Assembly (NCBI RefSeq): GCF_034424315.1
Contig: NZ_CP139972.1
Coordinates: 2,170,001 to 2,234,000, forward strand
Reading direction: 5' to 3'
DNA: 64,000 nt
Source of the DNA: Chitinophaga sancti
GTDB lineage: Bacteria; Bacteroidota; Bacteroidia; Chitinophagales; Chitinophagaceae
Positions 38,393 to 53,072 of this stretch are shown piece by piece. The translations under genes and the position numbers were made by a program. Position 1 is the stretch's first letter; every line of letters starts with the position of its first letter. The notes beneath the pieces were generated by a model, which was given only the letters and a program-made list of their open reading frames with translations, had not been told where the DNA came from and ran no database searches.

Positions 38393-38423
38393 TTTTGTGC
38401 CCCCGGTTGGACAATTCTCGAAC
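38393..38423 (-). other. tRNA 3'-end-like remnant, possible left border of an island
   Basis: On the minus strand this reads as a T-arm-like GTTCGAG, then AATTGTCCAACC, then GGGGGCAC and a short A-rich tail. It matches the sequence at 52564-52594 at 18 of 25 positions over the conserved part, including the shared block ACAATTC-CGAAC and the preceding TTTTGTG. No tRNA body remains. I infer an old integration scar; the two copies enclose the peptide locus. Confidence 0.4.
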
Positions 38424-38533
38424 CAGCTTTATGAACTTTTTAAATTAAAAGCGTTGATAATTAAATAGATATAATGCACCTCCGTAAGGTATGCAACTAT
38501 ATTTTAGTAAGAGTGCTGTTCTGTCAGGTGACC

Positions 38534-39946
38534 TCAGTGGTTTGGGATAAAGTGAATCAGTTTTAAGGCGTAATCCATCGCCTTATCAGCAGGTATTTTT
38601 AGATCCGGATTAACACCATTCCAGTCATTTTTATCTGCTCCGATATTGTAGTAAAGCTTACTTGAAATAGTAAATACCAGTTGCGTATGTGGCAAATGAC
38701 TGGTAACAATATCACCATAGCTGACAATTAAGCCCCCAGTCTCCTCTCCTATTATTTTTCCCAGTTTATAATGTTTAATGCATTGGGCAAAATCGGCAGC
38801 TGATGAAAATGTATAGGAACTGGTAAGTACATATACATTACCGTCAAAACGAAAGGGTGTATTTTTAAGCGGAATATCTTCGTAAACTTCTGTATCCAAT
38901 AGCCCCTCTGATTTGTTCAGGAAAATGCTGTCTTCTTTGGTCAATATTTTGCCAATCCTGTGATCGAGTAATCTTTTTTTTAATAACCTGCTATGTTTTT
39001 CGATTACCTTGTCATATTGCCTGAAGGGTGTTTTTGCAAGATATTGTATAAACTCATCTCCGATATCGGAATCCCCGCCGCTGTTTTTCCTTATATCAAT
39101 AATTATGTTCTTTATTTCATTCTTTTTAATGACAGCAAAAGCGGAATCAATAAATACATTAAATCTGTCAAGGTCCTCGAAACTGCGAAAGTCGAAGAGA
39201 GCGGTTTTTATTTCAGGTAATAGTTTTAAGCTATAATAAACATTTTCAGGCGATGGGGTGTTGGATGCGGAATCATTATAATGTTTCAGGAGTTTTGAAA
39301 ATTCCTGTTGCGGTATCCCTTTTATTATAACATCTTTCTTTCTGTTATTATGCAAATAAGAGATCCTGTATGTGCCGTTTGTCTTATAAAGGGATTGTAA
39401 ATAGAAGTCAAAATAGTTGGCACCAAAGTCTGCTCTGAATGCGCGGGTTTCTCCTGTATTCAGATTAATGATATCATTTACGATTTTCCTGGCGGGTACA
39501 TTGTTGATACTAATAATTTCAGCACCGTCGGGAAGCTGTTTTGATAAAGGAAGAGAATATTGGCTTGAAATGATGTATGGTTTCGATGGAGATAATTTGA
39601 TTATATATGGAAGAACGGCGGGATTGCTTTGATTATATAAATGTATAGGTGGTTTGATGTCTGTATGACCATCTTCAAGTTTAGCTATTAAAGGTTGTAT
39701 CAACAGATAAAAATCTACGGTATTCAGTGGATACTTTAATTGTTTTTTCAATACACGCACATCGCTGTAAAAATCTGTTTTGGAATATTTGTAATAGGGA
39801 TTAATATGAGTGTCTTCAATGGACTTGACCAGTGTATCTATATCATCCCTCATCTCTGACAGATTAAAAGTGTTCAGGGATTGACTTATAATAAAATTGT
39901 TTATGGAGAAGAACAGGAATAGAGTAATCGAGATTGTCTTATTCAT
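38534..39946 (-). CDS. secreted S41-family (C-terminal processing) peptidase
   Basis: 470 residues with an N-terminal export signal (ISITLFLFFSINNFIIS). It has the S41 arrangement: N-terminal helical part with DGHTDI, a degenerate PDZ-like part (LPDGAEIISINNVPARKIV), and the catalytic domain with DIRKNSGGDS, the nucleophile region SSYTFSSAADFAQ and GEETGG. It would cut proteins or peptides in the periplasm or outside. AT-rich like the rest of the region; it lies at the left edge of the peptide locus on the opposite strand, so a role in that pathway is possible but not shown. Confidence 0.85.
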   Translation of the reverse strand: MNKTISITLFLFFSINNFIISQSLNTFNLSEMRDDIDTLVKSIEDTHINPYYKYSKTDFYSDVRVLKKQLKYPLNTVDFYLLIQPLIAKLEDGHTDIKPPIHLYNQSNPAVLPYIIKLSPSKPYIISSQYSLPLSKQLPDGAEIISINNVPARKIVNDIINLNTGETRAFRADFGANYFDFYLQSLYKTNGTYRISYLHNNRKKDVIIKGIPQQEFSKLLKHYNDSASNTPSPENVYYSLKLLPEIKTALFDFRSFEDLDRFNVFIDSAFAVIKKNEIKNIIIDIRKNSGGDSDIGDEFIQYLAKTPFRQYDKVIEKHSRLLKKRLLDHRIGKILTKEDSIFLNKSEGLLDTEVYEDIPLKNTPFRFDGNVYVLTSSYTFSSAADFAQCIKHYKLGKIIGEETGGLIVSYGDIVTSHLPHTQLVFTISSKLYYNIGADKNDWNGVNPDLKIPADKAMDYALKLIHFIPNH

Positions 39947-40410
39947 TTGTGATTTCTTTTAAAATGCAGCTGTTTGCTTCCTGGCACATAAGCCGGCATA
40001 TTTTTGATCAGCCATTACCAGGAAGCAGGCAATATAAAGGTGCAAAAAAAATAAAAAAAATCACTTTCATATTGTTTATTTCAATTTTCTTCTTTATTTT
40101 CATCATCCGAACAGATTAGTTAATTATTTTAATAGACCCAAACGAATAATTCATTAAGCCCAACATTGAAAATGTTTGTTGAAGTTGTTATCCAAATTAG
40201 TACGGGCACTCGTTCTTGACCTGTATGTTTTAATAAGTGACCCATTTCTGTACTACTCAGTTATTCAAATAAAAAAGTAATCAATATAACCATAGTAATT
40301 TTTTCGTTCCATTAGCGATTACATTACTCTCGTTAATATTCCAGGTACCCGGAACAATAATAGAATTGTCCATTCCGCAAGCAAACTTGCAGGGAGAAAA
40401 TCTTCTTATT
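39947..40410. other. AT-rich intergenic region with a 9-bp inverted repeat
   Basis: No gene is seen in these 460 bases between divergent genes. GCTTCCTGG (39976-39984) is repeated inverted at 40018-40026, followed by an A-rich run. The promoters of both flanking genes must lie here, but I cannot place TAnnTTTG elements with confidence. Confidence 0.4.
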
Positions 40411-40998
40411 ATGGAATTTAAGATCGATGAAAGAGGTTCATGGATAAGCGACTCACTCGAAGGGCATTGTTTTGATCCTTCATTATGCCGGGCTATCGGT
40501 TCTGTTCTGAAGCATGAAGGAGCAAAAACGATTGTGGATCTTGGCTGTGGGCCCGGATGGTATGTAAGAGGGCTCTCTGATCTGGGATTTGATGCCTGTG
40601 GATATGATGGTAATCCCTATACAGCGTCCATTTCTGCTGATATAGTGGAAAACGGAAGATGTAAGACACTTGAATTAACAGTTCCGTTTGATCTTCAGGT
40701 TAAATATGATTATGTTTTAAGTTTAGAGGTAGGCGAGCATATACCAATTCAGTTCGAAGATCTGTTTATCGGGAACTTACTTCGTCATTGCAAAAAAGGA
40801 CTGATTATCAGTTGGGGTATAGTGGGTCAAAACGGTACCGGACATGTTAATTGCAGAGATAATGATTATATCATTGATAAGATGACATCTAACGGTGCTG
40901 TATTGAACTATACTGCCAGTAATTACCTCAGGGACAAGGCATCTTTATCGTGGTTTTTTAACTCAATAATGGTTTTTAACCTTTCTCCGAAAGATTGA
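40411..40998 (+). CDS. class I SAM-dependent methyltransferase
   Basis: 195 residues from the ATG at 40411; a TTG at 40366 in frame is less likely. SAM-binding motif I is IVDLGCGPGWYVRGL, followed by the acidic motif II CGYDGNP and YDYVLSLEVGEHIP as motif IV. The length is that of small Methyltransf_11/25-type enzymes. The target is not readable. It precedes the outer-membrane barrel gene by 26 bases and may belong to the peptide locus, where it could methylate the peptide or a sugar. Confidence 0.82.
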   Translation: MEFKIDERGSWISDSLEGHCFDPSLCRAIGSVLKHEGAKTIVDLGCGPGWYVRGLSDLGFDACGYDGNPYTASISADIVENGRCKTLELTVPFDLQVKYDYVLSLEVGEHIPIQFEDLFIGNLLRHCKKGLIISWGIVGQNGTGHVNCRDNDYIIDKMTSNGAVLNYTASNYLRDKASLSWFFNSIMVFNLSPKD

Positions 40999-41024
40999 AA
41001 GTTCTTTCATCTCATAAAAGAAAA

Positions 41025-43445
41025 ATGAAAAATCCATTAAGTGTTCTCCTGTTCTGTTTTGGAAAATTCCTATTTCTCTCTTCATTGCAAAGTTTGGGGC
41101 AGGATAGAATTTCCGGACAGGTTATCAATAAAAGCAATAAAAGTATACAGGATGTGTCGGTCATTTTATTCAGCAAAACAGACGGACATGTGCTAAAAAC
41201 TTCGATAACGAATGCTGATGGTTATTTTGAAATCAGCTCAGATCATTTACTGAATAACGATTTAAAATTTACTCATTTAAATTATGATGAACGTATCATT
41301 CATCTTGATACCGAAGCCCTGAAAAATGGTATAATCACTGTATTATTGGATGAGGCTTCACGCCGCAACCTAAAGGAAGTTCAGGTTACAACGAGAAAAC
41401 AGCTGATTGAGCGGAAAATTGACCGCACTATTTTTAACGTGGAGAATAGTATAGCTGTTATAGGAGGAGACGCGATGGATGCCTTGAGTAAAGCTCCAGG
41501 CGTAAGGGTAGGAAGCAATAATTCAATCAGTATAATCGGTAAAAACACGATAAAAGTACTAATAAATGACAAGTTGATACGATTATCTGGTGATGATCTG
41601 GTCAATTATCTGAAATCAATTCCGGCGGCAGACCTCAGCAGAATAGAAGTCATTACAAATCCACCTTCGAAATATGACGCTGAGGGAAATTCCGGCCTAA
41701 TCAACATAGTTACCAGAAAGGTAAAGCGTGAGGGGTTTTATGGAAATGTGAGAATGAATTTCATTAAGACGGTATATCAATCTGAAAACGGGGGAGTGTC
41801 ATTTTCATATGTCAAGGATAGAATGACGTTAACCGGAGGCATAAATGGTAATCATAACAGGACGTATTCCACCAATACAAAACGGACTTTTTACCCGGAA
41901 CAATTATGGGATGAGTCGGCAAACAAAATAAGAAAGAACAGGAGTATTTCAGGATCGATAGGTCTTGATTATAAAATCAATAGCAAACAGCTGATCGGGT
42001 TTCAATATAATGCTTCATTCCCAGGAAATGATGATAAAGCATCCTCTCTGACAACTGTTGGGTCGCATGAAAAACTAAAACCCGATTCTTTAATTACAAC
42101 TAATTCTTTGACGTCATCAAGAATACAAAACCATAGTTTTAATATTCATCACGAAATCGAAATCGATACTGCAGGAAAAGGTGTTTTTACTGATGCTGAC
42201 TACTTTTATTATACGAAAGGATCCAATGGGATATATAGTAGTTATACACAGAATGATGCAATGTCTGATCCGGCTCATATGTCAGGAGCATTGAATCAAA
42301 CGCCACAGAAAATAAAATTAATGTCGGCACAGACCGAATTCAGATACCCTGTCAGAAATTATAAACTTTCGTGGGGAGCTAAGATTTCTATGATCAGGAA
42401 TAACAGCAATTCGAATTTCTACATTGAAAATGCAGACACATTGTTGCTGGACACTTCAAGGACATTTAAATTCCGCTATAAGGAGAATACAGAGGCACTT
42501 TTTTTCAGCGGGAACAGAAGTTTCGGAAAGTTAGAAGTACAATTAGGTTTAAGGGCAGAGTATACACAGATCAATGGAGTGTCTGAAACTTACAATCAGG
42601 AAAACGAAGCGTTCTATCTGAAGATCTTCCCAACTGCGTATTTCCTATATAGGTTTGATGATGAACAATCATTATCTCTCACCTATGGAAGGCGGATAAG
42701 CAGGCCCGAATATTCAAGGTTAAATCCTTTCAGATATTATTCAAGTCCTTACTCTTATTCGGAGGGTAATCCATACTTACTTCCCTCTTACAGCAATAAC
42801 TTTGAAATCTCACATAATTATAAAGACTTAGTAACGTCGCAGGGGTTTGTAAGCATACTTTACAATGGTTTTGATCAGATCGGAATTCCGGATAAGAATA
42901 CTAACATCATAGGAATTGTGCAACGTAATTTTCTTAAAGTTACCAGTTGCGGTATTAATGAAACAATAAATACTACCTATTCCAGCTGGTTGGAGAGTTA
43001 CCATGAAATATCGGTATATTATAACAGTGCGGTTTCGTCCAATATCAATACCCCTAAAAAAGTTGATGGCTGGGGGGCGTATTTATCTACGAGTAACACA
43101 ATAACATTCAATAAAAAGAAAACCATTTTGGGAAGTGCCGATTTCTGGTTCCAATTTCCGGAGATAAGTGGGGTAGATAAAGTAGAAAGCTATTATAGTT
43201 TGGATTTGGGACTAAAACTATTACTTCTTCACAAGAAATTGACTGTAATTATTAATGGAACTGATTTGCTTAAGACAAACAAAGTATATTTTGGTAGCAT
43301 TACAAATTCCATTGTACAAAATTATGGAGGCTATTCCGGCGCCAGGTCTGTTAGACTATCTTTTTCTTATAAGTTTGGTGCCGCTATAAAATCACAGCGG
43401 AAGAAAAATTCTGTTAGTAACGATAGTGAAAAGAAACGGATATAA
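41025..43445 (+). CDS. outer membrane beta-barrel (TonB-receptor-like) protein
   Basis: About 806 residues from the ATG at 41025 (signal peptide with LSVLLFCFGKFLFLSSLQSLGQ). Residues 30-115 form a carboxypeptidase-like regulatory domain (ISGQVINKSNKSIQDVSVIL). A plug-like domain follows (VLINDKLIRLSGDDLVNYLK, SRIEVITNPPSKYDAEGNSG), then a long barrel ending near SVRLSFSYKFGA. This is the OMP_b-brl_3 type of Bacteroidota barrel, which has no SusD partner. Such receptors are often encoded beside secreted-peptide loci; here it could export or re-import the product, which is inference. AT-rich. Confidence 0.88.
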   Translation: MKNPLSVLLFCFGKFLFLSSLQSLGQDRISGQVINKSNKSIQDVSVILFSKTDGHVLKTSITNADGYFEISSDHLLNNDLKFTHLNYDERIIHLDTEALKNGIITVLLDEASRRNLKEVQVTTRKQLIERKIDRTIFNVENSIAVIGGDAMDALSKAPGVRVGSNNSISIIGKNTIKVLINDKLIRLSGDDLVNYLKSIPAADLSRIEVITNPPSKYDAEGNSGLINIVTRKVKREGFYGNVRMNFIKTVYQSENGGVSFSYVKDRMTLTGGINGNHNRTYSTNTKRTFYPEQLWDESANKIRKNRSISGSIGLDYKINSKQLIGFQYNASFPGNDDKASSLTTVGSHEKLKPDSLITTNSLTSSRIQNHSFNIHHEIEIDTAGKGVFTDADYFYYTKGSNGIYSSYTQNDAMSDPAHMSGALNQTPQKIKLMSAQTEFRYPVRNYKLSWGAKISMIRNNSNSNFYIENADTLLLDTSRTFKFRYKENTEALFFSGNRSFGKLEVQLGLRAEYTQINGVSETYNQENEAFYLKIFPTAYFLYRFDDEQSLSLTYGRRISRPEYSRLNPFRYYSSPYSYSEGNPYLLPSYSNNFEISHNYKDLVTSQGFVSILYNGFDQIGIPDKNTNIIGIVQRNFLKVTSCGINETINTTYSSWLESYHEISVYYNSAVSSNINTPKKVDGWGAYLSTSNTITFNKKKTILGSADFWFQFPEISGVDKVESYYSLDLGLKLLLLHKKLTVIINGTDLLKTNKVYFGSITNSIVQNYGGYSGARSVRLSFSYKFGAAIKSQRKKNSVSNDSEKKRI

Positions 43446-43601
43446 TCATACTATAAGAAATTGTAGTAACGTATTGCGATTGGCCATAAGCATTCGTTTA
43501 TTACACTATGCGACTATATCGCATTAAAAAAAATAGCGTTGAAATGACTTAACAACGAGATCAAGTAAGTCGAATTGTTTCCAATCCAATTTCTTTGTAA
43601 C

Positions 43602-43775
43602 ATGAAAAACAAAAATTTGCAGGATCTGCTTGATAAGGTAATCCAGGAAGAAAAGAATGAAATTAACTCTTTAGACGATTATTCGTCCCACCTTATTAAA
43701 GGCGGATATGATGAACTATCCTTAGATGACGATGGATGTTCAAAGCTGAAAGGATGTTCAAAAATTAAGAATTAA
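43602..43775 (+). CDS. GG-leader RiPP precursor peptide
   Basis: 57 residues from the ATG at 43602. An acidic, helical leader (residues 1-35) ends in the double-glycine motif IKGG at 32-35, as cut by C39 peptidases. The predicted core has 22 residues (36-57): YDELSLDDD, then two imperfect hexamers GCSKLK and GCSKIK, then Asn. Cys46 and Cys52 are the only cysteines. The leader form recalls the GG-type natural product precursors of Bacteroidota. The next genes are a radical SAM/SPASM enzyme and a C39 exporter, so this is very probably their substrate. Thioether, disulfide or S-glycosyl links at the Cys residues are all possible. Confidence 0.85.
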   Translation: MKNKNLQDLLDKVIQEEKNEINSLDDYSSHLIKGGYDELSLDDDGCSKLKGCSKIKN

Positions 43776-43782
43776 TCCAATT

Positions 43783-43809
43783 GATCAGGTAGCGTCATGC
43801 TGCCTGATC
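43783..43809 (+). terminator. intercistronic hairpin between precursor and maturase
   Basis: 11-bp stem (GATCAGGTAGC with GCTGCCTGATC, one G-U pair) and a 5-base loop, 8 bases after the precursor stop and 28 bases before the maturase ATG. A T-run follows only after 20 bases. It probably acts as a partial terminator or mRNA stabiliser so that more precursor than enzyme is made. Confidence 0.6.
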
Positions 43810-43836
43810 TTACGACTAATCTTCATATTTTTTTAT

Positions 43837-45192
43837 ATGGTTACTGATTATAAAAAATCATTTTACCTGGTGTCTTCTAATTCTCTGAAATTTGATAATG
43901 ATTACTCCGAAAGGCTGATCTTCTCGACCAGGACAAGTTCGCTTTTGTTGATACGTGAAGATCATTATCAGGAATTCAATGAGGAAAGGTTTGGAGAAAT
44001 TCCTGAACAGGTTTTAGATGAGTTGATTAAGATCCAGGCCGTTGTGCCAAAGGAACAGGATGAATTGGATTATGTAATATCGGCGAATAATGCTGCTATT
44101 GAAGGAAATGAAACGCTGGATATTGTAATTCAGCCAGGAGCTTCCTGTCAGCTCGGTTGTCATTATTGCGGACAGCAGCATACCAGTAAGTATATGGATA
44201 AAAATCTGCAGGAGAAGGTAGTTAACAGAATACGGTTAAAGATTGAAGCATCCGGATGTAAACAGTTAAATGTAACATGGTATGGGGCCGAACCTCTAAT
44301 GGCAGTCAATCATGTTTATGAAATGAGTGAAGCGCTGTTACTTGTCTGCAAAGAATATAATATCAGTTATACAGCAAGCATGGTGACAAACGGATTGAGT
44401 TTAAAACACAACATTTTCTTAAATCTTATTCAGAAATACCAGATTAAAACCTTTCAGATAACGTTGGACGGGATTGCAGCTTATCATGATTTGAACAGGT
44501 ATACGAAGAAGGAAAAAGGACCAACATTTTCTATCATCTTCAATAATATTCTTGCTATTGTGAATGCACCCGGATTTAAGGAGCTGGATGCAAATATTGT
44601 GATAAGATGCAATGTGGATACAAATAACGTTGATGGACTTAATGAATTTATTGATCTGCTGGCAGAGCATAAATTGCAAAAGAAAATTAGTTTTTACCTT
44701 GTTCCTATTCATAACTGGGGTGATAATGGTATTGAAAATAGCAAGGGTGTGGTAAAAGACAATTTTTCAGTTGCAGAGATTGACTGGATGATGAAACTTC
44801 TACAACTTGGGTTTGACGTAGAAATATTGCCGGAAAGGACAAAGATTGTTTGTAGTGCGGTGAAGAAACATTCTGAGGTATATGATGCGTATGGAACTGT
44901 TTCTACATGCTGGGAGGTACCCTATACCCCATTGTATAACCAGACGAAGTTTGAAATTGGACATCTGAATGTACCGTTTGAAGAAGATGTAAGTAAGACC
45001 CCAATGAGGAACTGGAATAATGATGTAAAGAACAGCGATGATTCTACCTGTATGAAATGCAATTTATTACCAGTGTGTGGGGGTAGCTGCCCTATACATT
45101 GGTTAAGCGGAACACCAGCTTGTCCTTCCTTTAAGTTTAATATGCAGGATCGCCTCGTATTACAATATCTCAGGAGTAAAAAAGTAATCTAA
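43837..45192 (+). CDS. radical SAM/SPASM peptide maturase
   Basis: 451 residues. The radical SAM cluster motif is Cys104-x3-Cys108-x2-Cys111 in SCQLGCHYCGQQH; WYGAEPL is the GGEP-like SAM motif. The C-terminal SPASM region carries Cys405, Cys408, Cys414, Cys418 and Cys429 (CMKCNLLPVCGGSCP), for one or two auxiliary Fe-S clusters. The N-terminal 90 residues may be the leader-peptide-binding part. Such enzymes make thioether, ether or C-C crosslinks, or epimerise residues, in ribosomal peptides. It is encoded 61 bases after the precursor and 13 bases before the exporter; its reaction on the two-Cys core is unknown. Confidence 0.92.
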   Translation: MVTDYKKSFYLVSSNSLKFDNDYSERLIFSTRTSSLLLIREDHYQEFNEERFGEIPEQVLDELIKIQAVVPKEQDELDYVISANNAAIEGNETLDIVIQPGASCQLGCHYCGQQHTSKYMDKNLQEKVVNRIRLKIEASGCKQLNVTWYGAEPLMAVNHVYEMSEALLLVCKEYNISYTASMVTNGLSLKHNIFLNLIQKYQIKTFQITLDGIAAYHDLNRYTKKEKGPTFSIIFNNILAIVNAPGFKELDANIVIRCNVDTNNVDGLNEFIDLLAEHKLQKKISFYLVPIHNWGDNGIENSKGVVKDNFSVAEIDWMMKLLQLGFDVEILPERTKIVCSAVKKHSEVYDAYGTVSTCWEVPYTPLYNQTKFEIGHLNVPFEEDVSKTPMRNWNNDVKNSDDSTCMKCNLLPVCGGSCPIHWLSGTPACPSFKFNMQDRLVLQYLRSKKVI

Positions 45193-45205
45193 TAAATTTT
45201 CCCCT

Positions 45206-47437
45206 TTGTTTATAAGCAAAAAAAGAACGGCTTTTTATCGGCAGTATGACGCAATGGATTGTGGTTCTACTTGTTTGAAAATGATAGCCAGCCATTATGG
45301 TAAAGAATATCCGCTGGATTTCTTAAGGGAAATTTCGTTTATAGGCAGAGAAGGTGTCAGTTTATTAAACTTAAGTTATGCTGCAGAAAAAATCGGCTTT
45401 AAATCGCTCAGAGCAAAGCTGACCATTAATGCCTTAATAAAAGACTGTCCCCTACCCTGTATATTACATTGGAATCAGAACCATTTTGTTGTTCTTTATT
45501 CTGTAAGAAAGTCACTCAATGGGAAGGTCAAATCTTTCAAAATAGGCGATCCAGCACATGGAATGTTGACGGTTGACAAAGAAGAGTTTTGTCGCCGGTG
45601 GCTGACTACAGCTCATAATGAAGGAGTGGCTTTATTGTTGGATACTACTCCCGAGTTTTATAAAAGGAACGATGAGAATAAAAGCCGGAAGAGTGCATCC
45701 GATTACATTTACAGATATTTAAAACCTCATTACAGGTATATATTTCAGTTCCTGGTTGGCATGCTTGCATCCAGTGGTATTTCATTAATGTTCCCTTTTT
45801 TGACACAAGCGCTTATTGATCATGGGGTGGGTGATAAGAATATCAAATATGTATATTTAATACTTTTCTCGCAACTTTTTCTTTTTTTTGGCATGTTTGC
45901 CATCCAGATGGTACAAAGCTGGTTAATGCTTCATATTAATATCCGGATCAGTCTTAATATTATTTCTGATTTTTTGATTAAGTTATTAAACCTGCCGATA
46001 AAATATTTTGATACAAAAACGGTCGGAGATATTTCCCAAAGACTTAACGACCATCACAGGATCGAGGATTTTTTAACAGGGGTAACCCTTAACACCGTCC
46101 TGTCAATAATAAATATTGTTGTCTATTCTGTTGTGCTAATGTTTTATAGCACTTCCATAATAATTATTTTCTGGGGCTTTACACTACTTGCACTGGGTTG
46201 GATCTTTATTTTTCAGAAGAAACGTAAGAATATAGATTATAAGCGTTTCCGACTGAACAAAGATAACCAGGATAAGCTTACGGAGTTAATATACGGAATG
46301 CAGGAAATTAAGTTATATGGTGCAGAAAGATCTAAAAGATGGGAATGGGAGCATCTTCAGATAAAGTCTTTCAAACTGAATATGAAAAGTCTGACTATTG
46401 AACAATATCAGAAATTCGGATATGTATTCCTCACGCAGATAAAAAATATCATTATCACATTTATTGCTGCAGGAGCAGTTATACAGGGAGAATTATCACT
46501 TGGTATGTTGTTGAGCATCTCATATATAATTGGCCAGACTAACGGTCCGATTGAGCAGCTTGTTGCCTTTATAAAGTCTGCGCAGGATGCCTCTTTAAGT
46601 ATTAATCGTATGAATGAGATCCACGCGCAAAAAAATGAAGTTGCAGAAAATATTGATAATGGTGGAGAGAATAGCGCCAGGGAAACTGATTATTCACAGC
46701 AGGATATTGAAGTAGCGAATGTTTCCTTTCAGTATGAAGGCCCCAAATCGCCTATGATATTGAAAAACATTAACCTGATAATCCGTCAGGGCAGTATTAC
46801 CGCAATAGTGGGCGCCAGTGGCAGTGGAAAGACCACACTTATGAAATTATTATTGGGATACTACACACCCTCGAATGGAAAAATTTATGTGGGCAATGTG
46901 GAGTTAAAAAACATTGAACCAGCTGAATGGAGAAACCGGTGTGGTACTATCATGCAAGAAGGATATATATTTTCGGACACGATTGCCAGGAATATTGCAT
47001 TGGGAAGAGATGATATCGATCATGAAAGAATGAGGATGGCTGTACACACCGCTAATATAGAGGAGTTTATTAAAGGAAAACCTTTGGGTTATACTACAAA
47101 AATAGGAAATAATGGTGTAGGGGTCAGTGGAGGGCAAAAGCAAAGGATCTTTATAGCCAGGGCTGTTTATAAAAACCCTGCATATATTTTTCTCGACGAA
47201 GCCACTAGTAGTCTGGATGCAAATAATGAAAAGGAAATTATGGAGAAACTCGATGTGTTCTTTGAAGATAAAACGGTAGTAATTATCGCACATAGGCTTA
47301 GTACTGTAAAGAATGCAGATCAGATCATTGTCTTGGACAATGGAGAAATAGTGGAAAGGGGAAATCACAGGGAGTTGATTCGAATGAAAGGAGTTTATTT
47401 CAAACTAATAAGAAATCAACTTGAATTAGGAGAATAA
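45206..47437 (+). CDS. peptidase-containing ABC exporter (C39 type)
   Basis: 743 residues, TTG start at 45206 (no ATG is available before the catalytic site). Residues 1-130 are a C39 peptidase: Gln13, catalytic Cys19 (AMDCGSTCL), His93 (QNHFVVLY) and Asp115 (GDPAHG). A six-helix membrane domain spans about 165-450. The ATPase domain has Walker A GASGSGKTT, signature GVSGGQKQR, Walker B IFLDEAT and the H-loop His in IAHRLS. It should cut the precursor after GG and export the core through the inner membrane. Its stop is directly against the next ATG. Confidence 0.95.
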   Translation: MFISKKRTAFYRQYDAMDCGSTCLKMIASHYGKEYPLDFLREISFIGREGVSLLNLSYAAEKIGFKSLRAKLTINALIKDCPLPCILHWNQNHFVVLYSVRKSLNGKVKSFKIGDPAHGMLTVDKEEFCRRWLTTAHNEGVALLLDTTPEFYKRNDENKSRKSASDYIYRYLKPHYRYIFQFLVGMLASSGISLMFPFLTQALIDHGVGDKNIKYVYLILFSQLFLFFGMFAIQMVQSWLMLHINIRISLNIISDFLIKLLNLPIKYFDTKTVGDISQRLNDHHRIEDFLTGVTLNTVLSIINIVVYSVVLMFYSTSIIIIFWGFTLLALGWIFIFQKKRKNIDYKRFRLNKDNQDKLTELIYGMQEIKLYGAERSKRWEWEHLQIKSFKLNMKSLTIEQYQKFGYVFLTQIKNIIITFIAAGAVIQGELSLGMLLSISYIIGQTNGPIEQLVAFIKSAQDASLSINRMNEIHAQKNEVAENIDNGGENSARETDYSQQDIEVANVSFQYEGPKSPMILKNINLIIRQGSITAIVGASGSGKTTLMKLLLGYYTPSNGKIYVGNVELKNIEPAEWRNRCGTIMQEGYIFSDTIARNIALGRDDIDHERMRMAVHTANIEEFIKGKPLGYTTKIGNNGVGVSGGQKQRIFIARAVYKNPAYIFLDEATSSLDANNEKEIMEKLDVFFEDKTVVIIAHRLSTVKNADQIIVLDNGEIVERGNHRELIRMKGVYFKLIRNQLELGE

Positions 47438-47916
47438 TGCCAGTAAAGGATATATACGAGCAACGCAGTATGGAAGTGCAGTCGGTCCTTAATCGTCCGC
47501 CAGGGAAAATCATTGTCTGGGGAAATCTTGTTTTGGTGACTGTCATCGGGCTCTTTCTTTATTTATCAGATTTGATTAAAATCCAGAAACGTTATTCAGG
47601 TACTTATAGTGTGGAAAATCAACGTGTAAACCCTGATTCTATAATTATGTTATCAACGGATTTGCCCCATGATATATTTTTAAAAGAGAAACTTCCTCTG
47701 AAGGCCAGACTATCTGTCATAGGGGCCCCGGATGACACTGTTACATGCAATATTGTTTCGTTCAAAACAGTAAAAGGCAAGGTATACCTATATGTACGCT
47801 TTTTTAATATTGGGGAAGAAAATGCAGGGCAAATAGTCGTCGAGGCAGACAGTGAAACTTTGCTTACAAATATATATAATGGAATAGTTAAAAACAGCAT
47901 AAAAAGACCACTATGA
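47437..47916 (+). CDS. short HlyD-like membrane adaptor
   Basis: 159 residues. The N-terminus, EVQSVLNRPPGKIIVWGNLV, followed by one membrane helix, is that of Bacteroidota HlyD-family secretion proteins. The expected 200-residue coiled-coil hairpin is absent; after a short stretch comes a beta-rich end (LPLKARLSVIGAPDD, KGKVYLYVRFF) like the adaptor's C-terminal barrel. It starts at the last base of the exporter stop and overlaps the next gene by ATGA, so it is fully embedded in the operon. It is probably a reduced partner of the exporter; no TolC-like gene is seen nearby. Confidence 0.7.
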   Translation: MPVKDIYEQRSMEVQSVLNRPPGKIIVWGNLVLVTVIGLFLYLSDLIKIQKRYSGTYSVENQRVNPDSIIMLSTDLPHDIFLKEKLPLKARLSVIGAPDDTVTCNIVSFKTVKGKVYLYVRFFNIGEENAGQIVVEADSETLLTNIYNGIVKNSIKRPL

Positions 47917-49628
47917 TATTTATGTGTGCTCAGCCGGATTCGGTATATCTGAGGTGGCAATTGGAGATCTTACTTTTTAATTTAAAAAGACTTTCAGTTG
48001 CCAGAGAAGATATCCATATACTAATTGGATATGATCCATCCAGAGGGCCAAATCCCTTATATACCAGGCCATCTCCCCCCCTGTCTGATTCCGCCTGCTT
48101 CTATTTTTATGAGGATACCCGGATTAATAAGACTTATGAACCAACTATCAGGCCGCATATAATTAAGAAGCATTTTCTTCAACACCCGGATCTCAATAAC
48201 CAGTGTATATTTTATCACGATGCGGATATTATATTCAGAGAGATGCCGGATTTTTCTGCCATGACAAATGATGACTATTGGTATGTTTCTGATACGCTTA
48301 CCTATACCAGTGCCGATGCTATAAAAAAGGCCGGTAAGATTGTACTGGAAGAAATGTGTTTTGTTTTAAAAATCCCTGTTCATTTGGTTGAACAAAATTC
48401 CATTCATTCAGGGGGAGCACAATATTTAATGAAGGGGCTTACATATGAATATTGGGATAAAATAGAGTATGATAGCCTCAAACTTTACCTGCATCTGAAA
48501 AAGAATAAAGACAGGTATGTGCAGCTTTTTGCTGAGCAAACGCTTAAAAGTAAAGATGATTATGATAGCGTAATAGAATGGTGTTCAGATATGTGGGCCG
48601 TTCTCTGGAATGCATTTGATGCAGGATTTAAAGTGAAGGTTTCAAAAGAGCTGGATTTCTGCTGGCCGAAAGATGAGCTTAAAAAGTGGCATGAGGTGAA
48701 GATCTTTCATAATGCAGGTTTAGATAAGCACGAGGCATGGGAGTATTTTTTTAAAGGTGATTATATAAGTACGTTTCCTTTTAATGTTTCCCTGGATTAT
48801 GTAAGAAAGGATAAGTGTACATATATGTATGTAAAGGAAATAGAGAATTATAAAGAATCAAAAAAGATCGATTTATGTGATGTCACATTTCTGATTCCTG
48901 TGAGAATAGATTCGGGAGACAGGTTATTAAATGTAATCACTACCACCAGTTATTTATTCAAACACTTTAAAACTAATATAATACTTACTGAAGCCGATAA
49001 AGAACAAAGAATTGATTCAAAAAAGCTACCTCCAAATGTGGAATATTCATTTATATATGATACAAATAGGTGGTTTCATAGGACAAGGTACAATAACTAT
49101 ATGGTTGAAAAAGTTAAAACACCAATTATAGTATTGCATGATGTAGATGTTATTATTAATCCGGATCAACTATTGCAGGCTGCGAATGCCATCAGAAATG
49201 GCGAAGCAAAAATTTCGCTGCCGTTTGATGGTTGTTTCAAAATGTGTCGTTCTAAAACTCAGGTAAACCTGTTCAGAAAACAATTAGATGTTAAAATACT
49301 GGAAACCGAAGAATCTTTTATTGCCAGGGAAAAGGCCTGCGGGGGATGCGTGATGATAGATAAAGCTACTTTTATTGAATGTGGAAAGGAGAATGAATCA
49401 TTTTATAAATGGGGGCCGGAAGACATTGAAAGAGTAAGGCGTTTGGAAATTATGGGATACAAAGCAAAGTGGATAGATGCTGGTCATCTTTACCATTTGC
49501 AGCACGAAGTTTTTGAAAATTCTGAATATACTTCAGATGAGGAATATGCCGAACTTATGAAAATTCAGCTAAGTATAATAGGAATGACCAAACAGGAACT
49601 TAAAGAACATATCTTATTATGGAAATGA
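47913..49628 (+). CDS. two-domain glycosyltransferase (tandem GT-A)
   Basis: 571 residues with two GT-A-like halves. The first (1-310) has a metal-binding DxD in FYHDADIIF (Asp103, Asp105). The second (320-571) has HDVDVI (Asp410, Asp412) and the galactosyltransferase-type end GGCVMIDKATFIECGKENES...YKWGPEDIERVRR, ending in GHLYHLQH. Two different sugar transfers by one protein are likely. No membrane helix or signal is present. It overlaps the adaptor (ATGA) and the next gene, so it is translated as part of the peptide operon; the acceptor could be the peptide or a carrier. Confidence 0.85.
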   Translation: MIFMCAQPDSVYLRWQLEILLFNLKRLSVAREDIHILIGYDPSRGPNPLYTRPSPPLSDSACFYFYEDTRINKTYEPTIRPHIIKKHFLQHPDLNNQCIFYHDADIIFREMPDFSAMTNDDYWYVSDTLTYTSADAIKKAGKIVLEEMCFVLKIPVHLVEQNSIHSGGAQYLMKGLTYEYWDKIEYDSLKLYLHLKKNKDRYVQLFAEQTLKSKDDYDSVIEWCSDMWAVLWNAFDAGFKVKVSKELDFCWPKDELKKWHEVKIFHNAGLDKHEAWEYFFKGDYISTFPFNVSLDYVRKDKCTYMYVKEIENYKESKKIDLCDVTFLIPVRIDSGDRLLNVITTTSYLFKHFKTNIILTEADKEQRIDSKKLPPNVEYSFIYDTNRWFHRTRYNNYMVEKVKTPIIVLHDVDVIINPDQLLQAANAIRNGEAKISLPFDGCFKMCRSKTQVNLFRKQLDVKILETEESFIAREKACGGCVMIDKATFIECGKENESFYKWGPEDIERVRRLEIMGYKAKWIDAGHLYHLQHEVFENSEYTSDEEYAELMKIQLSIIGMTKQELKEHILLWK

Positions 49629-50749
49629 TAATTTCATCTATCAATGAAAATCTGGGAACTAATAGTGTGAGATGTGAAATGTCACAGTATATAGCCGATA
49701 GATTCGCCAGTCAGAAGTATCGCTTCAATAGTGACTTCGTACGTACGCCCAGTGCTGCGATTTTATTCTTTTACTATCTTTCTGATGTATTAGCTACTGA
49801 CAAGTATGAACAATACACCCGTGAACTACTTGTAGATACATTCCGGATTCTGCTAAAGACAAAGAAGGGTGTTAATGAAAGTATTGTTTCGGGTAACGCC
49901 TGGATTTTCTCGCATCTGGTTGATAAAGATATGATCAATATTAACCTTGATAATAACCTTGCGGATATTGATTTATTGATATGCAATGATGTTCAGACAA
50001 AATTCAGTAACAACCTTGTTCATGGCGGTTTGCTAAGTAAGGCCAGTTACCTCACAGACCGGTTGAGAAATACAGCATGTAATATAAACAAGCACAAAAT
50101 TGCTGAGAGTCTTGCATATGTGGTTGAAGAAATTGATTACCGTTTGACACTGAAAGACAAGCACAATATTACAGTGGCGCATCTCGAAGAGTTACAAAGG
50201 ATTTTCTTCTATATGAATAAGCTGTATCCTGAAAAAATTTATCGGGTCAAACAGGAAAGTATTTTTTCAAGTGTTGTTCCAAAAGTATTGACGTCCTTCA
50301 ATTCTCTTATCAGGGGAGATATCAGCTATTTTAATCTTTTGGAAGATATGGCATTGACATTAGGTATATATAACTCTCTTCTGAGATTCGCCGGTAATAA
50401 GATGCTATCTGAAGATGTTCCCGATTTATCAGGTTATATTAAGAATATTAATCTGGATATTATTAAATCGGAAACAATTAAGAAGCCATACGCAGCCATT
50501 AAGTGCATGAAGCTTCTGTTAAACATAAGGCCTTTGTATAAGGAATTGTATGAGTATAATACCTTACTGCATCGTTTGTATGATGCGCTGTCTTTATTTT
50601 CACTTAGCAGGCAACCAGGGCATTTTTCCAGCAATATAGGGTTCCCGAATATTGGGTTTTCCGGAGCCATAGGGATCGGGCTTGCATTACTTGAATTTGA
50701 GTCTAATAAAAAGATAGATTGGGAAGATGTGTTTATGCTTTATTCATAA
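49625..50749 (+). CDS. LanC-like protein lacking the classical zinc site
   Basis: About 374 residues, starting at the ATG at 49625 (ATGA overlap) or at 49619. It is helical throughout, with LanC-like phrases: VHGGLLSKASYLTDRL in the middle and GFPNIGFSGAIGIGLALLE at the C-terminus. The zinc ligands of true lanthionine cyclases (WC..G and CHG) are not visible; only two Cys occur. It may be a degenerate cyclase that binds the peptide, or an unrelated alpha-toroid. It follows a glycosyltransferase in the same transcript. Confidence 0.55.
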   Translation: MIISSINENLGTNSVRCEMSQYIADRFASQKYRFNSDFVRTPSAAILFFYYLSDVLATDKYEQYTRELLVDTFRILLKTKKGVNESIVSGNAWIFSHLVDKDMININLDNNLADIDLLICNDVQTKFSNNLVHGGLLSKASYLTDRLRNTACNINKHKIAESLAYVVEEIDYRLTLKDKHNITVAHLEELQRIFFYMNKLYPEKIYRVKQESIFSSVVPKVLTSFNSLIRGDISYFNLLEDMALTLGIYNSLLRFAGNKMLSEDVPDLSGYIKNINLDIIKSETIKKPYAAIKCMKLLLNIRPLYKELYEYNTLLHRLYDALSLFSLSRQPGHFSSNIGFPNIGFSGAIGIGLALLEFESNKKIDWEDVFMLYS

Positions 50750-50801
50750 GACTAAATAGAAGAACAGGAACGTACTTGAGTGCTGTTAAAATCCGTAAAA
50801 A

Positions 50802-51596
50802 ATGAGTATAAGGCAAGTGGTTTTATTGCTTACTAATAATTTATGTTTATCAACGCAATCTCTTTTCAAAGAAATTGCTGATGGCGTTGATATTTCAGAC
50901 GATGCGTTTATGTTATATCATCATCAACCGGGCAATGAAATACCGGGGTTTCTCTCGGAAGTGAATAGCCACATTTTCACCGATGATATTCTATATAACC
51001 TCGGGTATGTTCCTTTGTTCAACAAGCTTTTACCTGGAAGTAATCACTTCCCTTTACTGGATTTTTATAAAAAGTATTCTTCCTATGACTATTACTGGAT
51101 TATTGAAGATGATGTTCGCTTTACAGGAGACTGGTTATTCTTTTTCCAGTATTTTTCTAAATTAGAAGAATACGACTTAGTTACTTCACATGTCAGGTTT
51201 TTTGAGGAAGAACCCTATTGGTATTGGTGGGATACATTGAAACATTCGAGATATTTTATACCATTTGAAAGCAGGATCAGATCGTTTAATCCTATTTACC
51301 GTGTATCAAGAAAGGCGCTGGAACTCCTGAGTGATGTACTTGATATGAAATGGATAGGGCATCACGAAGTACTTCTGCCCACTATAATTTCCCTTGGTAA
51401 CTTGAAGCTGCTGGATTTTGGAGGAAATGGCCGATTTGTATTGCCTGGTTCTGAGAATAAGTTTTATACAAGTGAGAACGAAATAGGTGCGTTAAAAAAG
51501 GGTACAATGAGATTTCGACCTGTAAGGAGGAACGCAGGTCCGCTGAAAAATAAACTATATCATCCTGTTAAAGCAAAACATTCTTCTCTGTTATAA
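50802..51596 (+). CDS. glycosyltransferase-like protein (DUF3405-like)
   Basis: 264 residues. YYWIIEDDVRFTGDW (about 99-113) holds an acidic triad where GT-A enzymes bind metal-nucleotide, and EVLLPTIISLGNL is a later block; the aromatic motif PYWYWWDTLKH between them is striking. It resembles proteins grouped as DUF3405, thought to be glycosyltransferases. It starts 52 bases after the LanC-like gene in the same direction. Confidence 0.6.
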   Translation: MSIRQVVLLLTNNLCLSTQSLFKEIADGVDISDDAFMLYHHQPGNEIPGFLSEVNSHIFTDDILYNLGYVPLFNKLLPGSNHFPLLDFYKKYSSYDYYWIIEDDVRFTGDWLFFFQYFSKLEEYDLVTSHVRFFEEEPYWYWWDTLKHSRYFIPFESRIRSFNPIYRVSRKALELLSDVLDMKWIGHHEVLLPTIISLGNLKLLDFGGNGRFVLPGSENKFYTSENEIGALKKGTMRFRPVRRNAGPLKNKLYHPVKAKHSSLL

Positions 51597-51640
51597 GTGG
51601 TTTTATAATTTCCTTAGGATTTGCCAACAAAAAAGAAAAA

Positions 51641-52534
51641 ATGAGAATTGCATATCTGATCTTAGCCCATAGGAATATTTCACAGTTATCAACTTTAATA
51701 GACCTGCTGACAACTGATACTGATAACTTTTGCTTTATTCATCTCGACGCCAAAATAGCGAACAACAGGGTTAAAGACCTGGTAGCCAATAAGGTTACTT
51801 CGGGGAAATATAAGATAATTAAGAACGCAATAGATGTTAAATGGGGAGGATTCTCTATGATAGAAGCATCCTTACATTTAATTAAAGGGGCCTTAAAACA
51901 TAAAAAAATAGATTTTGATTATTTCGCTTTATTGAGTGGAATGGACTTGCCTATAAAAGATAATAACTATATCGATAAATATCTAATTAGCAATTCAGGA
52001 GAATATTATTTGGAGAATTTCAAAATTCCTAACTACGACCAATGGAGTGGAGATGGCGGAAAGAATAGACTTGAACATTATTGGTTTGTGGATGAATTAG
52101 GTATAAAAGAATCTACAAGACTAGTTAAATGTCAGAAGGATATGGGGCTAAAAAGAGAGATGCCGCGGTATGTCCGGCAGTTTTACGGAGGATCTCAATG
52201 GTGGACAATTTCAAGAAGATGTGCGGAGTTTGTCATGGATTTTGTAAATAATAACGCGGAAGTATATGAATTTTTCAAACGATGCCTTATTCCTGACGAA
52301 CTCTTCTTTCATACAATTATAATGAATTCAAGATTTGCATCACGTGGATATAATAATAACCTTCGTTGTATAGATTGGGCATCCGGACCGGAATTCCCTA
52401 AAGTTTTTGATATCAGCGATTTTGATTTCCTTATTACTCATGCTGCATTATACGCACGCAAGTTTGACATTCTCCATGATGCTGATATCATGGCTAAAAT
52501 AATAAACCATATAAAAAATAGGCCGCGTGAATAA
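51641..52534 (+). CDS. GT14-type (core-2/I-branching) glycosyltransferase
   Basis: 297 residues beginning MRIAYLILAHRN, followed by FIHLDAK, the substrate motif KWGGFSMIEASLHLIK, YFALLSGMDLPIK, and later GGSQWWTISRRCAEFV and PDELFFHTII. This is the standard GT14 signature of bacterial core-2/I-branching enzymes, which transfer GlcNAc, xylose or related sugars. It is the last gene of the operon before the right border remnant at 52564, and 44 bases after the previous gene. Confidence 0.88.
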   Translation: MRIAYLILAHRNISQLSTLIDLLTTDTDNFCFIHLDAKIANNRVKDLVANKVTSGKYKIIKNAIDVKWGGFSMIEASLHLIKGALKHKKIDFDYFALLSGMDLPIKDNNYIDKYLISNSGEYYLENFKIPNYDQWSGDGGKNRLEHYWFVDELGIKESTRLVKCQKDMGLKREMPRYVRQFYGGSQWWTISRRCAEFVMDFVNNNAEVYEFFKRCLIPDELFFHTIIMNSRFASRGYNNNLRCIDWASGPEFPKVFDISDFDFLITHAALYARKFDILHDADIMAKIINHIKNRPRE

Positions 52535-52952
52535 AACGGAGCATGTTATTTATAATTACCCTCTTTTGTGATCCCATTTGCACAATTCACGAACTTATTT
52601 TATTAGATGCTTAAATCTGAATTAAAATCTTTCGAGATCAAGCAAGCGTAAATGAGCTATATTGTTTAAATGATTGAAGCAGGGAATCCATTTTTTAATA
52701 TACAAAATAAGCGGGTCACTGAGTGTAACAAGAACAACTGAAATGCTTACAGAATTGATTGTTGATTTTTTGAAACGCTTATAACAGACGACATTTGAAC
52801 AATAATAATGCAAATAGGTGAAGCTTACCCCAACACCTTCACCTTATTCAAAAATAGCTACTTAATCAATAAATAGGATGTTTGCAGGTGATTCACTTAA
52901 AAACCCGGTGAAACTCAAACCTCGCTAATGGTTGACAGTGACTAAAGCTACT
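52535..52952 (-). other. intergenic zone with tRNA 3'-end-like remnant (52564-52594)
   Basis: On the minus strand 52564-52594 reads GTTCGTGAATTGTGCAAATG followed by GGATCACA, the end of a tRNA-like sequence (TGATCCC is shared with the intact tRNA-Lys at 53000). It resembles the remnant at 38393-38423. The rest of these 400 bases is AT-rich without a gene; an inverted repeat AGGTGAAG / CTTCACCT with a 14-base spacer lies at about 52821-52850. I see no integrase. Confidence 0.4.
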
Positions 52953-52996
52953 AAAAGAGAAAGCTTCAAGTCTTTGAACTTGAAGCTTTCTCTTTT
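52953..52996 (-). terminator. terminator of tRNA-Lys
   Basis: An 18-bp perfect stem, AAAAGAGAAAGCTTCAAG and its complement, with an 8-base loop directly downstream (minus strand) of the tRNA; the distal arm ends in CTCTTTTAG. Confidence 0.85.
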
Positions 52997-52999
52997 ATG

Positions 53000-53072
53000 T
53001 GATCCCGTTGGGACTCGAACCCAAGACCCATACATTAAAAGTGTATTGCTCTACCAACTGAGCTACGGAATC
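53000..53072 (-). tRNA. tRNA-Lys (anticodon UUU)
   Basis: On the minus strand a complete cloverleaf: acceptor GATTCCG pairing with CGGGATC and discriminator A, D-arm GCTCAGTTGGTAGAGC, anticodon loop CACTTTTAATG with anticodon TTT, T-arm with GGTTCGAGTC. The CCA end is not encoded. Followed by a strong terminator. Its 3' part recurs in degenerate form at 52564 and 61159, so this locus looks like an integration hot spot. Confidence 0.96.

Follow-up and report, generated by a model that had tools for sequence, protein, structure and literature searches.

Radical S-adenosylmethionine (SAM) chemistry and sugars are already known to meet in natural peptides: mycofactocin reportedly combines a radical SAM enzyme with oligo-glycosylation, and thiopeptides carrying sugars are said to have been described. 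Glycocin clusters group a glycosyltransferase (GT), a C39 exporter and a precursor, according to the available part of PMC12457901. For Bacteroidales, the available part of PMC10352776 tabulates areas with a radical SAM enzyme, a LanC protein and an S-glycosyltransferase (41 of 1,340), and also describes LanC-like proteins that have lost their zinc motifs, for which its authors lean towards an endoglucanase-like role. Here we analyze a gene cassette in a stretch of 64,000 nt (the window) from the single-contig 8.42-Mb genome of Chitinophaga sancti; the closest relative in the search was C. silvisoli, of the same genus. The cassette is predicted, with a probability of roughly 0.7, to make and export a glycosylated, radical-SAM-modified peptide with a double-glycine (GG) leader. 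The original prediction knew of no description of this combination of radical SAM chemistry and multiple glycosylation; in view of the Bacteroidales table, mycofactocin and the thiopeptides, the idea that it is undescribed is not supported. What is new here is not the bare gene combination but the module formed by a tandem glycosyltransferase (GT571) and a LanC-like protein, together with its mobility. In the open-access literature, no description was found of the GT571-LanC pair or of a glycosyltransferase resembling xylosyltransferase 1 (XT1) in a cluster for a ribosomally synthesized and post-translationally modified peptide (RiPP).

In a small sample, the two species compared, the cassette has changed its place with respect to the flanking DNA, and has done so as one unit. 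When the whole window was aligned by blastn with the C. silvisoli locus (L005), a single 14.16-kb piece was obtained, and the flanks were unaligned there. These flanks were found elsewhere on that contig of C. silvisoli in unchanged order, split into 11 pieces (>200 bases) with 76.7–89.1% identity. There the left flank stops at 105095 and the right flank starts again at 107498; a tRNA-Lys at ~106.3 kb but no cassette lies between them, and the C. silvisoli cassette occupies 129303–143453. Movement is concluded because the block is more alike than its flanks and because in C. silvisoli the flanks come together at a block-free site. The precursor, maturase, exporter, glycosyltransferase, LanC-like and protease genes are carried together in it. 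As to whether the glycosyltransferases belong to a separate surface-glycan transcript, a question raised by the original prediction, their genes lie inside the single co-transferred block with the precursor, maturase and exporter. The cassette has a G+C content of 36.2%, whereas the 36 kb on its left have 45.6% and the DNA on its right 40.4%. Just beyond the right edge (window 52952–53072), a perfect 20-base inverted repeat is followed by a tRNA-Lys.

The ten cassette proteins were scanned against NCBIfam and Pfam (Table 1). Their genes are arranged on the same strand between 40.4 and 52.5 kb, with open reading frames at the positions given by the original prediction. Its gene order, single direction and overlaps of 1–10 bases agree with the reading frames and gene gaps: the exporter and short-protein genes overlap by 1 base, the short-protein and GT571 genes by 4, and the GT571 and LanC-like genes by 10, while the remaining intergenic gaps span 13–156 bases. 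All ten proteins are present in C. silvisoli at 90–98% protein identity, and this conservation indicates that the genes are real. A GG precursor, a radical SAM enzyme and a C39 exporter together are known as a RiPP cassette, as the original prediction pointed out. The leader, with its GG end and a hydrophobic residue at −4, fits a C39-exported peptide, and the core reads YDELSLDDDGCSKLKGCSKIKN; the precursor matches no NCBIfam or Pfam family above noise. The maturase contains CX3CX2C at residue 104 and CX2CX5CX3C at 405, and the radical SAM and SPASM cysteine patterns are kept in 120 of 120 homologues among the matches listed. The exporter carries DCGSTC, HWNQNHF and GDPAHG, which we take to be the catalytic Cys, His and Asp motifs. 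The sequence thereby shows a precursor, a maturase with intact cluster motifs, a leader-cleaving exporter and glycosyltransferases with intact DxD motifs, all of them co-inherited.

Table 1. Features of the C. sancti cassette, in window coordinates
Feature	Position	Strand	Observation
Mobile cassette	38458..52617		One block common to C. silvisoli, 94.6% nucleotide identity; equivalent C. silvisoli site without the block
S41 peptidase gene, divergent	38534..39946	-	Pfam 3.9e-16; C. silvisoli copy 94% identical
SAM methyltransferase (Methyltransf_23)	40411..40998	+	Pfam/NCBIfam, above cut-off
Outer-membrane beta-barrel protein (OMP_b-brl_3)	41028..43445	+	Pfam 2e-82, above cut-off
Precursor peptide, 57 aa	43602..43775	+	Leader end ...SSHLIKGG; 22-residue core, two Cys
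Radical SAM/SPASM maturase	43837..45192	+	Radical SAM and SPASM above cut-off; Cys motifs
C39 peptidase-ABC exporter	45206..47437	+	Pfam 9.9e-30; listed reading starts at TTG
Short 159-aa protein	47437..47916	+	No family match; 'HlyD-like' label unconfirmed
GT571, tandem two-domain glycosyltransferase	47913..49628	+	DAD at 103, DVD at 410, WGPED at 500
LanC-like protein	49619..50749	+	Without WCxG and CHG zinc motifs; LANC_like just below cut-off
DUF3405-like putative glycosyltransferase	50802..51596	+	19.4 vs cut-off 25 bits; EDD at 102
GT14 (Branch) glycosyltransferase	51641..52534	+	Branch 2.6e-32; best solved match human xylosyltransferase 1

The gene labels fared unevenly. Those of the methyltransferase, barrel, radical SAM/SPASM enzyme, C39 exporter, GT571 and GT14 hold, and the LanC-like (22.5 bits vs the Pfam LANC_like cut-off of 23.2) and DUF3405-like labels fall below their cut-offs. 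The HlyD-like label is unconfirmed, as neither the 159-aa protein nor two homologues match any NCBIfam or Pfam family above noise; similar short proteins occupy the same position in several loci. The S41 peptidase gene lies inside the interval of the original prediction, yet is missing from its gene list. What we take to be a Bacteroidetes-type promoter pattern occurs once at 39973 (plus strand); scans for promoters and terminators gave no more matches than chance would (51 vs 50.8; 9 vs 7.6).

A similar arrangement was observed in two more distant Chitinophaga loci, L028 and L029, in the order barrel, precursor, maturase, C39, short protein, GT14, GT571 and LanC-like. Identity to the window was 57–60% for the maturase, 61–64% for C39, 48–52% for GT571, 34–35% for GT14 and 26% for the LanC-like protein, and a C-S/T-K...C-x-K core pattern is common to the three precursors. 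The methyltransferase and DUF3405-like protein look like accessories, since neither has a match in these two loci; the S41 peptidase gene has no match there either. Relatives of the methyltransferase are found in the C. silvisoli cassette and also adjoining a GT571 half in L079.

Scanning genome contigs with the maturase returned one locus. Eighteen further maturase loci comprised L030, at 42% identity, and seventeen at 33–41%; GT571, the sole glycosyltransferase family sought, was found in only one of them, L030, with an adjoining LanC-like gene. A maximum-likelihood tree was built from 50 maturases: the window enzyme, those of 21 loci, and the top 30 database hits less two that were already among the loci. 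In it the window enzyme falls in a clade of 14 rows with support 100/100. Ten of the 14 are linked to GT571, four by read neighbourhood and six by the proxy of a longest contig equal in length to one in the GT571 list, which is not equivalent to a read neighbourhood and draws on lists of at least 120 matches. The rest are three rows on contigs <15 kb, too short to be judged, and one (P0006) without a match among the matches listed. The neighbouring group of nine rows contains no GT571-linked member among the matches listed, five of them being on contigs >15 kb and four on short contigs. The L030 maturase is placed elsewhere in the tree, outside the 14-row clade, and its GT571 link therefore looks independent. 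Glycosyltransferase and LanC-like genes accompany homologous precursor/maturase pairs in L028 and L029, and the GT571-linked maturases fall in one clade plus the separate case of L030. The original prediction had named two findings that would overturn it, absence of the glycosyltransferases from homologous pairs elsewhere and a separate transcript for them; it survived both checks. These observations support one co-inherited, co-transferred unit of glycosyltransferase, LanC-like, precursor, maturase and exporter genes. Additionally, several of the distant maturase loci encode a protein of ~325–340 aa, without a convincing Pfam match, in the interval separating the maturase from the C39 exporter (L030:8833-9804, L032:8784-9788, L034:9512-10531); the window cassette is without it.

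GT571 and the LanC-like protein form a recurrent pair in the genus. Among 79 Chitinophaga genomes, GT571 or half of it was found at 20 places in 18 genomes, and a LanC-like gene adjoins it at 19 of the 20 (exception L080) according to a home-made profile of which eight of the 20 linked proteins were themselves members. With Pfam LANC_like, 14 of 14 linked proteins examined gave a match, 12 at E ≤0.001 and seven above cut-off; L076 (0.0033) and L082 (0.033) were weak. In wider searches, two of 246 genomes from a different family carried GT571, in both cases just the N-half, and an order-wide draw gave two of 298 genomes, one being the window's own.

The pair mostly lies near C39 domains (15 of 20 places overall). 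Ten genomes together contain 11 GT571 places and 56 C39 domains; 10 of the 11 places lie ≤10 kb from a C39 domain, the neighbours being nine exporters and one C39-VKOR-thioredoxin fusion (G801); chance expectation is ~1.4% per place (56 C39 domains in ~78 Mb), for places that are related by descent and mostly better-scoring. For the other nine places, BLAST with the window exporter detected C39 in L005, L075, L076 and L082, and a contig-end fragment in L081. In other respects the GT571 clusters differ: some have thioredoxin or VKOR domains, some a GT11-type enzyme, and in some no maturase was recognised. L074 is a multi-product, glycocin-like cluster in which three 86-aa GG precursors in tandem (L074:6389-7434) lie upstream of the genes for a thioredoxin-like protein, GT571 and a LanC-like protein. 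In L073:7293-8915, a 541-aa protein fusing C39 peptidase, VKOR and thioredoxin domains immediately precedes GT571. In genome G793, the GT571 halves are separate genes on different contigs (L077:9166-10143 and L079:9178-10116), each adjoining a LanC-like gene.

The LanC-like partners were sampled by position beside GT571, because a sequence search with the window protein gave only two near copies. Among 15 GT571-linked proteins (a set formed outside L076–L079), the WCxG and CHG zinc motifs are both missing in 14, and the first-motif region is an alignment gap in 13, whereas both motifs are present in seven of seven strong-scoring Chitinophaga LanCs. Judged by these motifs, the GT571-linked proteins are not ordinary cyclases. 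The exception, L075:10587-12533, is a 648-aa protein adjoining GT571 with intact LanC motifs. An alignment of 11 LanC-like sequences has W95, D118, R148 and E163 in every one, and a structure model from four near-identical sequences is mostly helical, though of too low quality to judge the fold (mean pLDDT 53.7). The pairing with a glycosyltransferase suggests that the LanC-like protein may be a glycosylation helper.

Comparison with solved glycosyltransferases placed GT14 close to human XT1 (5.2e-14 for the window protein and 1.9e-16 for L028). The equivalents of XT1 E529 (presumed base), W392 and R598-K599 are kept, the Arg-Lys pair in a second, low-scoring alignment piece. The XT1 residue D494, a xylose contact, is replaced by Gln in the window and by Cys in L028/L029, so that this feature of a GT14 peptide O-xylosyltransferase is absent. 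GT571 has two glycosyltransferase domains in one chain, as in LARGE1 and the K4 chondroitin polymerase (K4CP), with a Glyco_transf_7C match above cut-off in its second half; the fold assignment rests on the two-domain matches, and VIA-align rows cover chiefly residues 316–569. No convincing solved relative of the DUF3405-like protein was found.

Precursors were surveyed at 18 GT571 loci (the window represented by L005, with L080 outside the set) and recognised in 14; none was recognised in L069, L072, L079 or L081. Controls were 40 C39 loci, 23 with a precursor, some of them lanthipeptide clusters, read as 12-kb stretches compared with 16 kb for the GT571 loci. Cysteine-containing cores also occur in most precursors recognised at maturase loci outside the GT571-linked clade. 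Ser/Thr-rich core tails, striking in L028, L070 and others, were considered as evidence of glycosylation and discarded because the controls showed no difference. Precursors at L112:2349-3037 and L070:14464 have a common NISKC motif and a Thr-rich tail; L070 is a GT571 locus, and L112 is a 12-kb control stretch whose genome has its one GT571 on another contig.

In the proposed pathway, the SPASM maturase would use the Cys residues of the core to crosslink it, a thioether being the most likely product, before cytoplasmic glycosyltransferases attach sugar to the core. GT14 might place the first sugar, on a Ser, and the two domains of GT571 would add further sugars, while the zinc-less LanC-like protein, rather than cyclising the peptide, would bind it and present it to GT571. 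The C39 exporter would then cleave after GG and export the product, and the barrel would act at the outer membrane. Competition with neighbours or signalling is a likely role, although this is the weakest step. Several results weigh against this account. Attachment of the sugar to the peptide itself is an inference. Ser/Thr/Pro-rich stretches are not enriched beside GT571 (4 of 14 loci vs 8 of 23 control C39 loci, p 0.77), and the Ser/Thr content of cores gave p 0.14 against the C39 controls and 0.074 in a comparison with six GT571-free maturase loci. The maturase scores 206.9 bits vs the 525 cut-off of its best curated family, TIGR04463, and only the general SPASM domain passes its cut-off among the 25 families listed. 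No C39 was found in the fetched stretch at five of 20 GT571 places (L072, L077–L080). GT571 is also found without this maturase, so the radical SAM and GT571 chemistries are separable.

With the acceptor inferred, an unlikely explanation is that the glycosyltransferases and LanC-like protein modify the producer's surface glycan or an outer-membrane receptor, for self-protection or display, and never the peptide. Surface glycan loci commonly contain enzymes of the GT14 and GT2/7 types, and no other immunity gene is recognisable among the ten proteins; however, none of the ten matched a polymerase, flippase or lipid-carrier transferase family, GT571 is locked by overlaps between the exporter and LanC-like genes, and it lies near C39 domains in clusters with very different GG-leader precursors. 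A glycocin-like S-glycopeptide, with Cys as the glycosyltransferase acceptor and the maturase forming some link other than a thioether, such as a carbon-carbon one, is quite unlikely: the glycosyltransferase, exporter and precursor match the glycocin layout (PMC12457901, available part) and thioredoxin or VKOR domains occur at some GT571 loci (L073, L074), but the window core has two Cys only and none of the ten cassette proteins is thioredoxin-like. That the LanC-like protein itself is an alpha/alpha-barrel enzyme which processes glycans, and no peptide-binding helper, is a doubtful but less remote option, in line with the four invariant residues and with the resemblance to endoglucanases suggested for motif-less proteins near carbohydrate enzymes (PMC10352776, available part). 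It fits less well with a glycosyltransferase neighbour at 19 of 20 places, and no glycosidase family matched the window protein.

Returning to the glycosylated peptide, a sugar-bearing product is worth seeking, since the genes for sugar attachment move together with those for the peptide. An elaborate form of this reading, which we consider very unlikely, is a bacterial miniature of proteoglycan assembly: the XT1-like GT14 would start a glycan on a radical-crosslinked secreted peptide, the two-domain glycosyltransferase of LARGE/chondroitin-polymerase layout would extend it, perhaps repeatedly, and the dead LanC would be a peptide-presenting glycosyltransferase subunit. The zinc-less LanC-like protein is a near-constant neighbour of one glycosyltransferase family, mostly beside peptide exporters, which offers a genetic handle on why such proteins recur in Bacteroidota RiPP clusters. 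If the pair is a glycosylation module, Chitinophaga clusters that differ in their other chemistry are predicted to yield sugar-bearing peptides, and the pair would be a portable tool for glycosylating peptides. Being small and mobile, the cassette can be put to the test in E. coli.

Among known systems, mycofactocin, a redox cofactor of mycobacteria, is likewise a radical SAM RiPP that is oligo-glycosylated; to our knowledge it has neither a C39 exporter nor a LanC-like protein. Human XT1 shares GT14 sequence similarity and the presumed base, Trp and Arg-Lys pair, and differs at the replaced Asp494, while LARGE1 and K4CP have a two-domain chain in common with GT571 at 9–13% identity, a TM-score of ~0.3 and another domain arrangement. 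Class I lanthipeptide systems differ in that no LanB dehydratase family was matched among the ten proteins and the window LanC-like protein is without zinc ligands. Glycocins resemble the cassette in GG leader, C39 exporter and glycosyltransferase; the cassette is distinguished by its radical SAM maturase, two-domain glycosyltransferase and LanC-like partner, and, where glycocins have a disulfide-rich core and a thioredoxin-like partner, by a core with two Cys only and no thioredoxin-like protein among its ten. The Bacteroidales areas with radical SAM and LanC-like proteins, with or without a glycosyltransferase, come close: BGC3, as given in the available part of PMC10352776, likewise has a radical SAM enzyme, a zinc-motif-less LanC-like protein, a glycosyltransferase, a GG-type precursor and no LanB. 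According to the same part, those areas have a pseudo-radical-SAM protein and BGC3 is without a C39 exporter, whereas here no pseudo-radical-SAM protein was recognised, and C39, tandem GT571 and GT14 are united in one mobile cassette. Finally, sactipeptide and ranthipeptide maturases (TIGR04463, Clo7bot, CefB, PapB) are likewise radical SAM/SPASM enzymes acting beside Cys-containing cores, and the window enzyme differs from them in scoring far below the curated cut-offs and in belonging to a GT571-linked clade of its own.

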